Program-made: the position numbers and the translations under genes
The notes under the pieces: generated by a model
Databases searched by the model: none
What the model was told of the DNA's origin: nothing
What the model saw: the letters and a program-made list of their open reading frames with translations, nothing else
DNA from: Treponema sp.
Lineage (GTDB): Bacteria > Spirochaetota > Spirochaetia > Treponematales > Breznakiellaceae
Direction of reading: 5' to 3'
Assembly: GCA_009785215.1 (NCBI GenBank)
Contig: WQWU01000013.1
Span: 1-49,792 of the forward strand
Length of the DNA: 49,792 bases
In this document: in pieces, positions 7,790-11,106 of the stretch
How the letters are laid out: the number at the start of each line of letters is the position of its first letter
How positions within the stretch are numbered: the stretch's first letter is position 1

Positions 7790-8236
7790 TTAAGGAACCC
7801 ACATTAATTTATCGGGTGCAGATTCTTTTAAAAATATGTTTTCGTACCGTCCTGAATGTTTTATGTTTGTTTTTTCTGGGAAATAATTTTGCATATAAAA
7901 CCAGACAACGTCAGACATTGTATTTGATGAATCTGTCGGGGCATACCGGTACCAGATTTCTTTTTCTTCAAGAATAGCCCTGGCTTTTTCATCAGTTTTA
8001 CACAGTTCGGGATCTGTTATCCGCCGGATTTCACTTCTAAGACCGCCGTAATTTGTCTGCCCTACAACAAACAATCTTAATCGTTTGTTCTCATCCATCC
8101 AGTAGATTTCAAAAATTCCTGCAAGCGAAGGAACTTTGGATATAATATCATATCGATTTGCTTTGGAAAGAGGAGACCACTGGACAGAATAATAAATGTT
8201 TCCCTGTTTTTCTGCCGCTGTAATTCCGTACTTCAT
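7790..8236 (-). CDS. Unknown protein, possible divergent GIY-YIG fold
   Basis: 148 aa, no family recognised with certainty. The middle reads AGIFEIYWMDENKRL then LRLFVVGQTNYGG and LRSEIRRITDP. The order GIF, about 18 residues, VVG, then an Arg-rich helix resembles the GIY-YIG nuclease core (GIY, YIG, catalytic Arg). The tyrosines are replaced, and no C-terminal catalytic Glu can be assigned confidently. A non-nuclease role is equally possible. The gene probably starts the operon that continues into the YrdC gene. An extended -10 TGCTAGAAT lies 5 nt before its ATG. Confidence 0.6.
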   Translation of the reverse strand: MKYGITAAEKQGNIYYSVQWSPLSKANRYDIISKVPSLAGIFEIYWMDENKRLRLFVVGQTNYGGLRSEIRRITDPELCKTDEKARAILEEKEIWYRYAPTDSSNTMSDVVWFYMQNYFPEKTNIKHSGRYENIFLKESAPDKLMWVP

Positions 8237-8288: not shown

Positions 8289-8308
8289 CTGTATAAAAAA
8301 TAATACAG
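8289..8308. repeat. Inverted repeat, candidate activator site
   Basis: CTGTAT (8289-8294) and ATACAG (8303-8308) form a perfect 6-bp inverted repeat with an 8-bp centre. The centre lies about 131 bp upstream of the predicted sigma-54 start (about 8430), the usual range for an enhancer-binding-protein site. The assignment is by position and symmetry only, in AT-rich DNA. Confidence 0.3.
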
Positions 8309-8403
8309 TTATAATAAAAATATCAAAAATCAATATATTTAATTATCATCTAATTCGTTATATTATAATGAGTTATGGTATTAATACTGATTTTATGCTG
8401 ACT

Positions 8404-8419
8404 TGGCACGCAATTTGCT
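8404..8419 (+). promoter_or_regulatory. Sigma-54 (RpoN) promoter of sigma factor gene
   Basis: TGGCAC (8404-8409), five bases, TTGC (8415-8418): an exact match to the -24/-12 consensus, with the GG and GC doublets 12 bp apart. The predicted start is about 8430, leaving a 31-nt leader that contains a GGGAGG Shine-Dalgarno (8450-8455) and ends at the ATG at 8461. A weaker sigma-70-like TATAAT lies further upstream at 8364-8369. Confidence 0.85.
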
Positions 8420-8460
8420 ATGTATTTCTTGCTGTTTTAATTAAATGGCGGGAGGCTTTT

Positions 8461-9165
8461 ATGCAAAAGAAAAATTCTGTGTTAAACGAGAATCTGCTTG
8501 AAACATATTTTAAGCAAATTAAAGCTTTTCCTCTTTTATCATTTGATGAAGAACTAACCTTGTCAAAACAGATTCAGGAAGGAAACCAGGAATCGCTGCA
8601 AAAGCTTATTAACTCAAATTTAAGGCTGGTTGTTAAAATAGCCGGGTTATATATAAGCAGCAATATCCCCATTTTGGATTTGATTCAGGAAGGTAATATC
8701 GGATTGATTTATGCAGCAAAAAAATACGATTACCGTAAAAATGTCCGGTTTTGCACTTATGCAAGCTGGTGGATAAGGCAGTTTATCAGCCGTTACAGAA
8801 TCAATGGAAAACGGTTAATTCGTTTACCTCTTAGAAAAGCGGCTTCCTCTATAAACCAAATCGTCGAAGATGACAGTATAGTAAATCTTTACGAAGACTA
8901 TACATACAGTCCTGAAAGAGATTTTATGAAACAGGCAGCAAATGACGATGCAATGCGCATTTTAAGTAAATTAAAGGAAAGAGAAAGGCGTATTTTAAGT
9001 TACAGGTATCAATTAAACGGCTGTCAGTATTATTCACTAAGGGAAATAGGCGCAGAACTTGATCTTTCGCCTGAAACTGTCCGTCAGATTGAACGAAGAG
9101 CGCTGAAAAAAATCCGCAGCCAGGAAAGCAGCCTGCGTGAATCCCTTTTTACGGCAGCTATGTAA
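8461..9165 (+). CDS. Compact sigma-70-family RNA polymerase sigma factor
   Basis: 234 aa. Region 1.2 is present (NLLETYFKQIKAFPLLSFDEE), as is a full region 2 (LDLIQEGNIGLIYAAKKYDY, then FCTYASWWIRQFISRY and the RLIRLP end of 2.4), and region 4 with its helix-turn-helix (SLREIGAELDLSPETVRQIE). Region 1.1 is absent. Between RLIRLP and region 4 there are only about 45 residues, which look like a 3.0 stub plus a 3.2-like acidic linker, so the sigma-3 helical domain seems to be missing. ATG 8461 is chosen because it has GGGAGG 5 nt upstream and directly follows the sigma-54 promoter. The longer frame to 8368 would run through that promoter. Role: alternative sigma, probably RpoN-controlled. Confidence 0.88.
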   Translation: MQKKNSVLNENLLETYFKQIKAFPLLSFDEELTLSKQIQEGNQESLQKLINSNLRLVVKIAGLYISSNIPILDLIQEGNIGLIYAAKKYDYRKNVRFCTYASWWIRQFISRYRINGKRLIRLPLRKAASSINQIVEDDSIVNLYEDYTYSPERDFMKQAANDDAMRILSKLKERERRILSYRYQLNGCQYYSLREIGAELDLSPETVRQIERRALKKIRSQESSLRESLFTAAM

Positions 9166-9219: not shown

Positions 9220-11106
9220 ATGATCAATGAAGGTTCTCTGGTTGTTTACAAAAACAAACCGGCTATTGTAAGGGAACATGCAAACGGAAAGTATACGATT
9301 TCTCTTCAGGACGGCGAACAGGTAAAAGTCCGCGATAAGGATATTGAAGTGCTTCATCCTGGAGAAGTAAAGGATTTTAGCTGGATAACAAATAGTTATA
9401 TTAAAAATTCTGCCGTCTGCGAAGTTTGGGAATTATTATCCGATGAAGGCGTTTCCATAACGCTTAAGGATTTAGCGGCGATTATTTTTAATGAGTATTC
9501 GCCTTCTTCGGCTTATGCTGTGTATAACCTATTGCAGGATGGACTTTATTTTTCCGGTACACTTGATGTTATTATTCCAAAGAATAAAGAAGAAGTATCA
9601 GCCGAAGAGGCAAAGAGAAATGCATTGCAGCGCGAGAGCAGCGAGCGCAAAGAGTTCCTGCAGCGGTTAAAAACCTGTATTAAAAAAAATCAGGCATCTG
9701 CCGCAGAAGAAAACTTTTTGCCTGCGGATGATTCGCGTTTTATTCAGGACATTGAAGCGCTTGCTTACGGAAAAACTGCAAAAAGCCGTACTTTAAAGGA
9801 ATTGGATATTACCGAAACTCCGGAGGAAGCTCATTTTATATTGTTAAAAACCGGTTTTTGGACAAGCGCTGTTAATCCCCACCCAAGCCGTTTTGGGCTG
9901 TCGCTTGCAGGCGCAAGTATAAGTTTAAATCCGCCGTTATTGGATGAAGAGCGCCGGGATCTTTGCCATTTAGAAGCATTCGCCATTGACAATTCCTGGA
10001 GCAATGATCCGGACGATGCAATTTCAATAGAAGTTATTGATACAGAAAAAACCTGTTTGTATGTTCATATTGCCGATCCTGCTTCTTCTATCGCTTTTGA
10101 CAGTCCTGCAGAAAAAGAAGCCCGTGACAGGGGAGCGACTCTTTATCTTCCGGAAGGCACTGCCTGTATGTTAGCTGACAATTCAATTTCCCTGTTTGCG
10201 CTTGGACTTTCGGATAAATCTTTAGCATTAACTTTTAAAATTATAATAGACAATAAAGGCGAAGTTATTGACACAGATATATTTCCTTCCTTTGTAAAAG
10301 TTACACGTTTAACTTACGCACAGGCCGATAAGGAAATTGATGCAAAATTGCGTTCCTTTTTTGATTTATCTCAAAAAATATTTAAACGGCGCACTTCCTG
10401 CGGAGCAGTAAATATTGAGCTTCCTGATGTTTATATAACCTGTAAAAACGGAATTGTGCAGATAGAGCCGGATATTCCTTCGCGTTCTGCTTCCATAGTT
10501 AGAGAGTTCATGCTTGCCGCGGGCGAAGGCGCAGGAACCTGGGCTGCTTCCAGGGGGCTTGCTTTTCCTTATATTAGCCAGGAAGCAGAGTTTCCGCAGG
10601 ATCATTCAAAAGTGATTATAACTGGAATTGCAGGTGCAATGCAGCTTCGGCGATGCATGAGACCGCGGGTGCTTTCTGTAAAGCCAGGCCGGCATCAGGG
10701 GCTTGGTCTTGATACATACACACAGGTTACAAGTCCGCTGCGCCGTTATACCGATTTATTGGCGCACATTCAAATACGCACATTTCTGCGCGGAGACAAG
10801 CCGCTTTCTGCAGATGAAATTTCGGCGCGGCTGGGTTATAGCGAAGCTGCAGCATCAGCGACTGTTTATGCAGAAAGAGCATCTAACAATCACTGGATTA
10901 TGGTTTATCTTTCTGATAAAAAAGATTCAGTTTGGGATGCTGTTGCCATCGAAAATAAAGGAAACCGCTGGTCAGTAATGATACCGCTATTGGCTATGGA
11001 AACGCAGGCTGCTCTGAATAAAAATGTTACACCTAACGAAGAAATAAAATTAATTTTAAAATCTGTGAACATAGCAAAAGGCGAAGCTGTCTTTGTTCAG
11101 GGTTAG
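9220..11106 (+). CDS. RNase II/R family (RNB) exoribonuclease
   Basis: 628 aa, a 3'-5' processive exoribonuclease. The RNB catalytic segment is AFAIDNSWSNDPDDAIS with the Asp cluster that binds Mg2+, followed by LYVHIADPAS and, late, QVTSPLRRYTDLLAHIQIR. The N-terminal 200 residues are less typical, and no clear tandem cold-shock domains were recognised, so it is a short RNase II/R relative rather than full-length RNase R. It is convergent with the OppF-type gene and overlaps its stop by 4 bp. It starts 6 nt after a TATAAT. Confidence 0.88.
   Translation: MINEGSLVVYKNKPAIVREHANGKYTISLQDGEQVKVRDKDIEVLHPGEVKDFSWITNSYIKNSAVCEVWELLSDEGVSITLKDLAAIIFNEYSPSSAYAVYNLLQDGLYFSGTLDVIIPKNKEEVSAEEAKRNALQRESSERKEFLQRLKTCIKKNQASAAEENFLPADDSRFIQDIEALAYGKTAKSRTLKELDITETPEEAHFILLKTGFWTSAVNPHPSRFGLSLAGASISLNPPLLDEERRDLCHLEAFAIDNSWSNDPDDAISIEVIDTEKTCLYVHIADPASSIAFDSPAEKEARDRGATLYLPEGTACMLADNSISLFALGLSDKSLALTFKIIIDNKGEVIDTDIFPSFVKVTRLTYAQADKEIDAKLRSFFDLSQKIFKRRTSCGAVNIELPDVYITCKNGIVQIEPDIPSRSASIVREFMLAAGEGAGTWAASRGLAFPYISQEAEFPQDHSKVIITGIAGAMQLRRCMRPRVLSVKPGRHQGLGLDTYTQVTSPLRRYTDLLAHIQIRTFLRGDKPLSADEISARLGYSEAAASATVYAERASNNHWIMVYLSDKKDSVWDAVAIENKGNRWSVMIPLLAMETQAALNKNVTPNEEIKLILKSVNIAKGEAVFVQG

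Follow-up and report, generated by a model that had tools for sequence, protein, structure and literature searches.

A probable RpoN promoter upstream of a sigma-70-family sigma factor gene in Treponema and conservation of its -24/-12 box among spirochetes

Experiments have placed Borrelia rpoS under the control of RpoN (sigma-54), according to the available parts of two studies (PMC3037356 and PMC1976401). The locus described here raises the question of whether a sigma-70-family sigma factor gene of a Treponema species is transcribed under RpoN control. The gene is located in a stretch of 49,792 nt, hereafter the window, which corresponds to contig C13 of a genome (G000) assembled into 54 contigs (1.9 Mb, ~75% complete). 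As stated in the preliminary description of this DNA, an exact -24/-12 match, TGGCACGCAATTTGC (TGGCAC-N5-TTGC), was found at positions 8404 to 8418, with GG at -24, GC at -12, and the correct spacing for a sigma-54 promoter. The element ends 42 nt before the ATG at 8461, and the GGGAGG motif claimed for this interval is present at 8450 to 8455, downstream from a predicted +1 at ~8430. The ATG at 8461 was preferred to an in-frame ATG at 8368, since the resulting N terminus, MQKK, is common to many close relatives. The features of the region are the following.

8290..8307, no strand assigned: dyad D1, TGTATAAAAAATAATACA, candidate enhancer-binding protein (EBP) site; the only TGTAT-N8-ATACA in the window (0.05 expected), 114 bp before the -24 box
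8351..8375, no strand assigned: dyad D2, TAATTCGTTATATTATAATGAGTTA, candidate regulator or enhancer site; the only match in the window (0.02 expected), 53 bp before the -24 box, containing TATAAT at 8364-8369
8404..8418, plus strand: -24/-12 element of the RpoN type, TGGCAC-N5-TTGC; exact match; 197 of 206 related loci agree at 8 or more of the 10 positions
8430, plus strand: predicted transcription start, ~12 nt past the GC at -12, deduced from sigma-54 promoter geometry
8450..8455, plus strand: ribosome binding site GGGAGG, read from the sequence
8461..9165, plus strand: sigma-70-family sigma factor of 234 aa with regions 1.2, 2, and 4 and no region 3, according to Pfam
8847..8848, plus strand: approximate in-frame junction at which ~46 to 49 residues of region 3 are missing, from an alignment with six relatives of the same genus (the place depends on the alignment)

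The divergent open reading frame (ORF) upstream of the sigma factor gene (7790 to 8236, minus strand) had no Pfam match. An RNase II-like gene is located downstream (9220 to 11106). A conserved operon combining the sigma factor gene with the downstream RNase gene was considered and rejected as a general arrangement, since the pair was found in only 18 of the 66 loci with enough downstream sequence.

The preliminary description had reported no other comparable element before a gene in the window, and TGGCAY-N5-TTGC indeed occurs there only once as an exact match. With 0.31 matches expected per window and at least one match in 30 of 100 shuffles, this single occurrence is not above chance. The entire G000 genome contained 13 matches versus 4 for the backward control. 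Three of the 13 were intergenic with a gene start close downstream, and reading of the ORF lists by eye identified the corresponding genes as hsp20, the sigma factor gene of the window, and a gene encoding a 210-aa membrane protein.

Pfam analysis of the sigma factor revealed regions 1.2, 2, and 4 with scores over the cut-offs, whereas region 3 was not matched; region 3 was present in all four relatives tested. Among 206 distinct related proteins, no other is as short, and of the 139 in which both anchor motifs were found, it alone has a middle part that is clearly shortened. Despite the loss of region 3, the promoter, region 4, and the residues immediately preceding region 4 were kept. The gap is either a real deletion or an assembly error. 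Lacking region 3, the protein does not display the combination of regions 1.2, 2, 3, and 4 that characterizes group 2 and group 3 sigma-70 factors. It resembles ECF (group 4) sigma factors in the absence of region 3 but differs from them by the presence of region 1.2 and by the presence of region 3 in the four relatives tested. Assignment to the ECF factors, which contain only regions 2 and 4, was rejected on account of region 1.2. Proteobacterial RpoS (TIGR02394) was the best NCBIfam match by score, but this assignment was also rejected (176.5 versus a cut-off of 378.7 bits), and the one gammaproteobacterial RpoS in our tree (see below) grouped with SigA and RpoD.

The loss of region 3 might indicate that an active box drives a sigma factor gene undergoing decay. 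This is possible but doubtful. The short length of the protein and its branch of 0.34 in the tree, versus 0.11 for its sister, are as expected for a decaying gene. However, the frame is open, the three remaining regions score over the Pfam cut-offs, the stretch preceding region 4 is kept, and the promoter box is present together with both dyads, all of which argue against decay.

Conservation of the box was evaluated upstream of related sigma factor genes by scoring the 10 consensus bases of TGGCAY-N5-TTGC from 160 nt upstream to 15 nt past the chosen start. Relatives were collected by a family search (124 of 195 genomes at an E value of 1e-40), a search of named genomes (best 80 of 228 kept), an order search (212 of 390 at 1e-55), a search of the family of genome G281 (142 of 145 at 1e-44), and a phylum search (252 of 296 at 1e-46), RpoD matches being included in the last two counts. 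Twelve further chosen genomes were added, and frames of more than 400 aa from these were left out as RpoD. Only matches with fetched sequence were scored, which amounted to 248 sigma loci, including 206 that were distinct over the core stretch. This set is non-random, since it comprises the best matches of each search and 60 regions hand-picked to spread over families.

The preliminary description had proposed the upstream sequences of orthologues as a check, and the element proved to be kept. In the 206 distinct genes, the score was 10/10 in 98, 9 in 79, 8 in 20, and lower in 9, so that a box of at least 8/10 preceded 197 genes and a box of at least 9 preceded 177. Scores of at least 9 were obtained once with the reversed pattern and never with the antisense pattern or with the spacer lengthened or shortened by one nucleotide; no score above 8 was found inside the same 206 genes. 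For the 80 named loci, at least 9 bases were matched upstream of 76 sigma factor genes (8 in 2 and 6 in 2) versus none of 497 upstream sequences of other ORFs, 25 of which scored 8. Most of these named relatives are Treponema metagenome-assembled genomes, which, judged by isolate names, we read as originating from termite and cockroach guts. Positions that did not enter the score, analyzed in 199 sites, also followed the sigma-54 logo, with T before TGGCA in 86%, A or G after TGGCAY in 98%, T before TTGC in 89%, and W after TTGC in 99%. Three of the nine low-scoring loci contain a box of 9 to 10 further upstream (L115 at -171, L251 at -165, and L267 at -217). The other six (L075, L248, L249, L250, L252, and L280) had no box of at least 9 within 300 nt; L075 is a close relative, and the other five are outside both clades of the tree described below or of unsure place in it.

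The two dyads were discovered by k-mer enrichment in 99 upstream sequences. Their scores are partly circular, since they were counted in the upstream sequences from which the dyads came, and their spacing provides independent information. In the upstream sequences of 82 close relatives (loci L021 to L130), D1 scored at least 9/10 in 61, D2 scored at least 15/20 in 60, and both did so in 50; the shuffled means for the same scores were 7.06 and 11.25, respectively. D1 started 109 to 117 bp before -24 in 53 of the 61 close relatives bearing it, and D2, in a 27-bp form, started 52 to 55 bp before -24 in all 60. Among the more distant loci L221 to L240, D1 was found in 10 of 20 and D2 in 2 of 20; neither dyad was found in four distinct Borrelia upstream sequences. 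On the basis of sequence, D1 and D2 are candidate enhancers of the same promoter region.

D1, D2, and an RpoN box also preceded a membrane protein gene in five of five loci chosen for having the box, which lay 53 to 54 bp downstream from the beginning of D2. The membrane proteins encoded by these loci (L332 on G000:C40, L316, L317, L324, and L325) comprise 207 to 217 aa. No Pfam or NCBIfam family matched the L332 protein above the cut-offs; by eye, it appeared to be kinase-like. In G000, D2 was found at 17 places with up to one mismatch (none for the backward control), and an RpoN box of at least 9 was present within 150 nt at 2 of these places and absent at 15. D2 was thereby ruled out as a marker of RpoN promoters only. 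Other D2 places were close to dnaA-like genes, to a fusA-like gene, to tRNA genes, or to probable repeats. At 18 loci corresponding to exact D2 sites of six genomes, the box was located 53 to 54 bp further on in 7, upstream of the sigma factor gene (3 loci) or of the membrane protein gene (4 loci). The occurrence of D2 away from RpoN boxes therefore suggests that another or a wider regulator may use this dyad. Two dnaA-like genes, as judged by eye (L342 and L343, G000:C31 and C32), have D2 and a D1-like dyad (8/10) upstream, near a DnaA-box-like sequence. Near-perfect D2-like palindromes in similar flanks were seen at four other G000 loci (L335, L338, L340, and L341), one of them before a gene judged by eye to be ftsH-like; these palindromes are probably a dispersed repeat or a terminator.

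The sigma factor gene might be under dual control, being induced through RpoN and transcribed at a basal level from a weak housekeeping promoter. Such control is common in other bacteria and would be compatible with the results reported here. Inspection of 12 printed upstream sequences by eye revealed no conserved -35/-10 pair, which argues against this option, and we consider it rather unlikely. Far less probable is transcription mainly from a sigma-70 promoter with the TATAAT at 8364 to 8369, singled out in the preliminary description, as its -10 sequence, the RpoN-like box being a relic. The TATAAT is perfect and the region is AT-rich. However, a promoter at this place is less likely because the hexamer lies inside D2 at a kept distance from -24; the inner letters of the dyad vary among relatives, and the part that is kept over the phylum sample is the -24/-12 box. 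Finally, a chance match, to which the expected number of matches per window might lend some credit, was dismissed because it is contradicted by the conservation of the box, the controls, and the dyads.

The preliminary description had also proposed a search of the genome for rpoN and for EBPs, and both were found in G000. The AID, CBD, and DBD domains of RpoN all scored above the Pfam cut-offs. An rpoN match was obtained in 283 of the 296 genomes of the phylum sample. The Sigma54_activat domain gave three strong and three weak matches in G000. Since PF00158 also matched all 14 control genomes, only strong matches with the sigma-54 loop were counted as EBPs. L003 is of the NtrC type (REC-AAA-HTH), with a receiver, an AAA domain containing GAFTGA, and an HTH domain. 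L002 has the same REC-AAA-HTH organization with the loop GAFTDA, and L004 is a GAF-AAA-HTH protein with the loop GAFTNA.

As judged from sequence comparisons, the element at 8404 to 8418 is very probably a working RpoN promoter that is opened by an EBP and drives the sigma factor gene. For this organism, we infer promoter activity, activator, signal, and targets as follows. RNA polymerase carrying RpoN would bind to 8404 to 8418 as a closed complex. An environmental signal, possibly stress or a changed environment, would switch on an EBP bound at D1 and perhaps at D2. The EBP would loop over and open the complex with ATP, and the sigma transcript would start near 8430. The sigma factor would then redirect the polymerase to its own genes.

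In a tree of 104 rows, the sigma factor of the window, its treponeme relatives, and Borrelia RpoS were located on one side of a branch with support of 100/98. The other side contained a second spirochete clade, whose members include TDE0937 and the T. pallidum-like L214, and also RpoD, SigA, and the gammaproteobacterial RpoS. The weak spots of the tree are the unsure places of L240 and L246 to L248, a support of 45/78 for the split nearest the drawn root, and a partly unresolved clade around Borrelia RpoS, which has a long stem (1.38). A box of at least 8 was present within 200 nt in 62 of 62 rows of the first group and within 300 nt in 25 of 25 rows of the second clade (support, 99/82). RpoN-type boxes thus stand before the sigma factor genes of two lineages. 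The preliminary description had regarded a treponeme cascade as a second hierarchy besides that of Borrelia. Because Borrelia rpoS shares its tree side and its box with the sigma factor gene of the window, the two look instead like one old cascade, and an RpoN-to-sigma cascade is probably ancestral in spirochetes.

The locus resembles the Rrp2-RpoN-RpoS system of Borrelia burgdorferi in having an RpoN-type -24/-12 element directly before a sigma factor gene from the same tree side and rpoN in the genome. The same box was found before rpoS in five Borrelia-like loci (L241 to L245). The two systems differ by the dyads at a kept distance in the close relatives of the window and by the three strong EBPs of G000. 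Borrelia has one EBP, as stated in the accessible part of PMC11109971, and its Rrp2 has been reported to act without an enhancer in the portion of PMC1976401 available. According to PMC11109971, again from the part available, rpoS is seemingly the sole Borrelia gene to which a promoter of the sigma-54 type has yet been assigned; in contrast, RpoN boxes also precede hsp20 and other genes in the spirochetes examined here. Links from sigma-54 to other sigma factors also exist elsewhere, as for HrpL and FliA. A sigma-54-to-sigma-32 link has been proposed in the accessible text of PMC3162934. COG0568 and COG0071 have been associated with sigma-54 (PMC12316311), and the accessible part of that paper does not name Spirochaetia for them. 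We found no description of RpoN boxes before treponeme sigma factor genes in the literature, most subscription papers being outside reach and the others accessible in part, so that an earlier description is possible.

An RpoN-type box was found within 400 nt of hsp20 in 30 of 30 chosen genomes (at least 9 in 29 and 8 in one), a count based on the best hsp20 match per genome. A common enhancer for the sigma factor gene and hsp20 was not supported, since D1 scored at least 9 in none of the 30 hsp20 upstream sequences and D2 scored at least 15 in one. A different dyad, of the type TGTCA/TGACA, was seen by eye before hsp20 of the same genus (L281, L284, L288, L289, and L296), which suggests that the hsp20 activator is other than that of the sigma factor gene.

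The strict pattern YTTRGCAYRNNNNTTGCW had exactly four sites in genome G240, and its backward control had none. This genome is Treponema denticola or very near to it, since its locus L219 contains all six published TDE0934-TDE0937 primers exactly. The four sites, none of which is inside an ORF of at least 120 aa, precede a peroxiredoxin gene (AhpC/TSA family), two sigma factor genes, and hsp20. In five genomes, 24 strict sites were found versus 5 for the backward control, with an uneven split (both strands summed) of 4 versus 3 in G169, 7 versus 1 in G153, and 9 versus 0 in G011. No strict site was found in G204, a genome termed T. pallidum-like on grounds of size and gene positions, whose sigma box lacks the leading YTT. 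Three of the 24 sites were inside ORFs. The other 21 included seven before sigma factor genes, four before hsp20, two before peroxiredoxin genes, and two before the gene for the membrane protein described above, all named by resemblance. By eye, strict boxes of G153 (L350, L354, and L364) were located before lipoprotein-like and sulfatase-modifying-like genes.

Expression data for T. denticola were taken from the available passages of PMC2965109, the genes TDE0011, TDE0070, and TDE1029 being assigned to G240 from their type and position rather than by name. On heat, oxygen, and osmotic downshift, respectively, TDE0937 was up 2.8-, 21.8-, and 14.0-fold and the Hsp20 gene TDE1029 was up 9.5-fold (9.8 in another table), 8.5-fold, and 6.7-fold in that study (PMC2965109). 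The peroxiredoxin gene TDE0011 was up 38.6-fold on oxygen, and TDE0070 was unlisted for heat or oxygen induction and down 1.8-fold on osmotic downshift (PMC2965109). Thus, in the published data available, three of the four genes behind the strict sites of G240 are oxygen induced. The exception, TDE0070, belongs to the clade of the window sigma factor itself, and its expression counts against a simple stress reading for this group. T. denticola has no OxyR, and TDE0937 was proposed by the authors as a possible stress regulator; the passages available draw no connection between TDE0937 and RpoN (PMC2965109). Like the gene of the window, TDE0937 belongs to the sigma-70 family, has a similar size, and is preceded by a -24/-12-like box; it differs in belonging to the second clade, nearer RpoD, and in having a box that reads TAGCAT.

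In the T. denticola group (genus g58), sigma factor genes have TAGCA rather than TGGCA as their -24 box (L192, L195, L204, L206, L208, and L215 to L219), with the exception of L200 of G308. The hsp20 box of this genus reads TGGCA in G240 and G199 and TAGCA in G308. The DNA-binding domain of RpoN scores lower in g58 than in the genome of the window.

These observations may tentatively be brought together in a single reading, for which our confidence falls just short of even. Since the common ancestor of spirochetes, RpoN would have served mainly to switch on other sigma factors, together with a few protective proteins (Hsp20 and peroxiredoxin). The RpoN-RpoS pathway of Borrelia would be a stripped-down descendant without the dyads, RpoN would fill the place of the missing oxygen-response regulator in T. 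denticola, and the sigma factor of the window would have become ECF-like by loss of domain 3 while keeping RpoN control. Loss of the enhancer dyads in Borrelia, if true, would explain why Rrp2 is enhancer free. The RpoN-RpoS pathway is commonly described as peculiar to the Lyme disease agent; a box shared by related sigma factor genes throughout the phylum sample implies an inherited circuit, with a job older than virulence. RpoN as the inducer of the peroxiredoxin gene, hsp20, and TDE0937 under oxygen would offer a possible and testable answer for T. denticola, an organism without OxyR, and the dyads point to where the activator may be sought.

In the Borrelia-like family f7, the rpoS frame contains stops in G508, G597, G653, and G670. 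In the same family, the rpoN match was split in two in G508, G535, and G653 and was weak in G670, and G639 had none. Joint decay of rpoS and rpoN is possible in these genomes.
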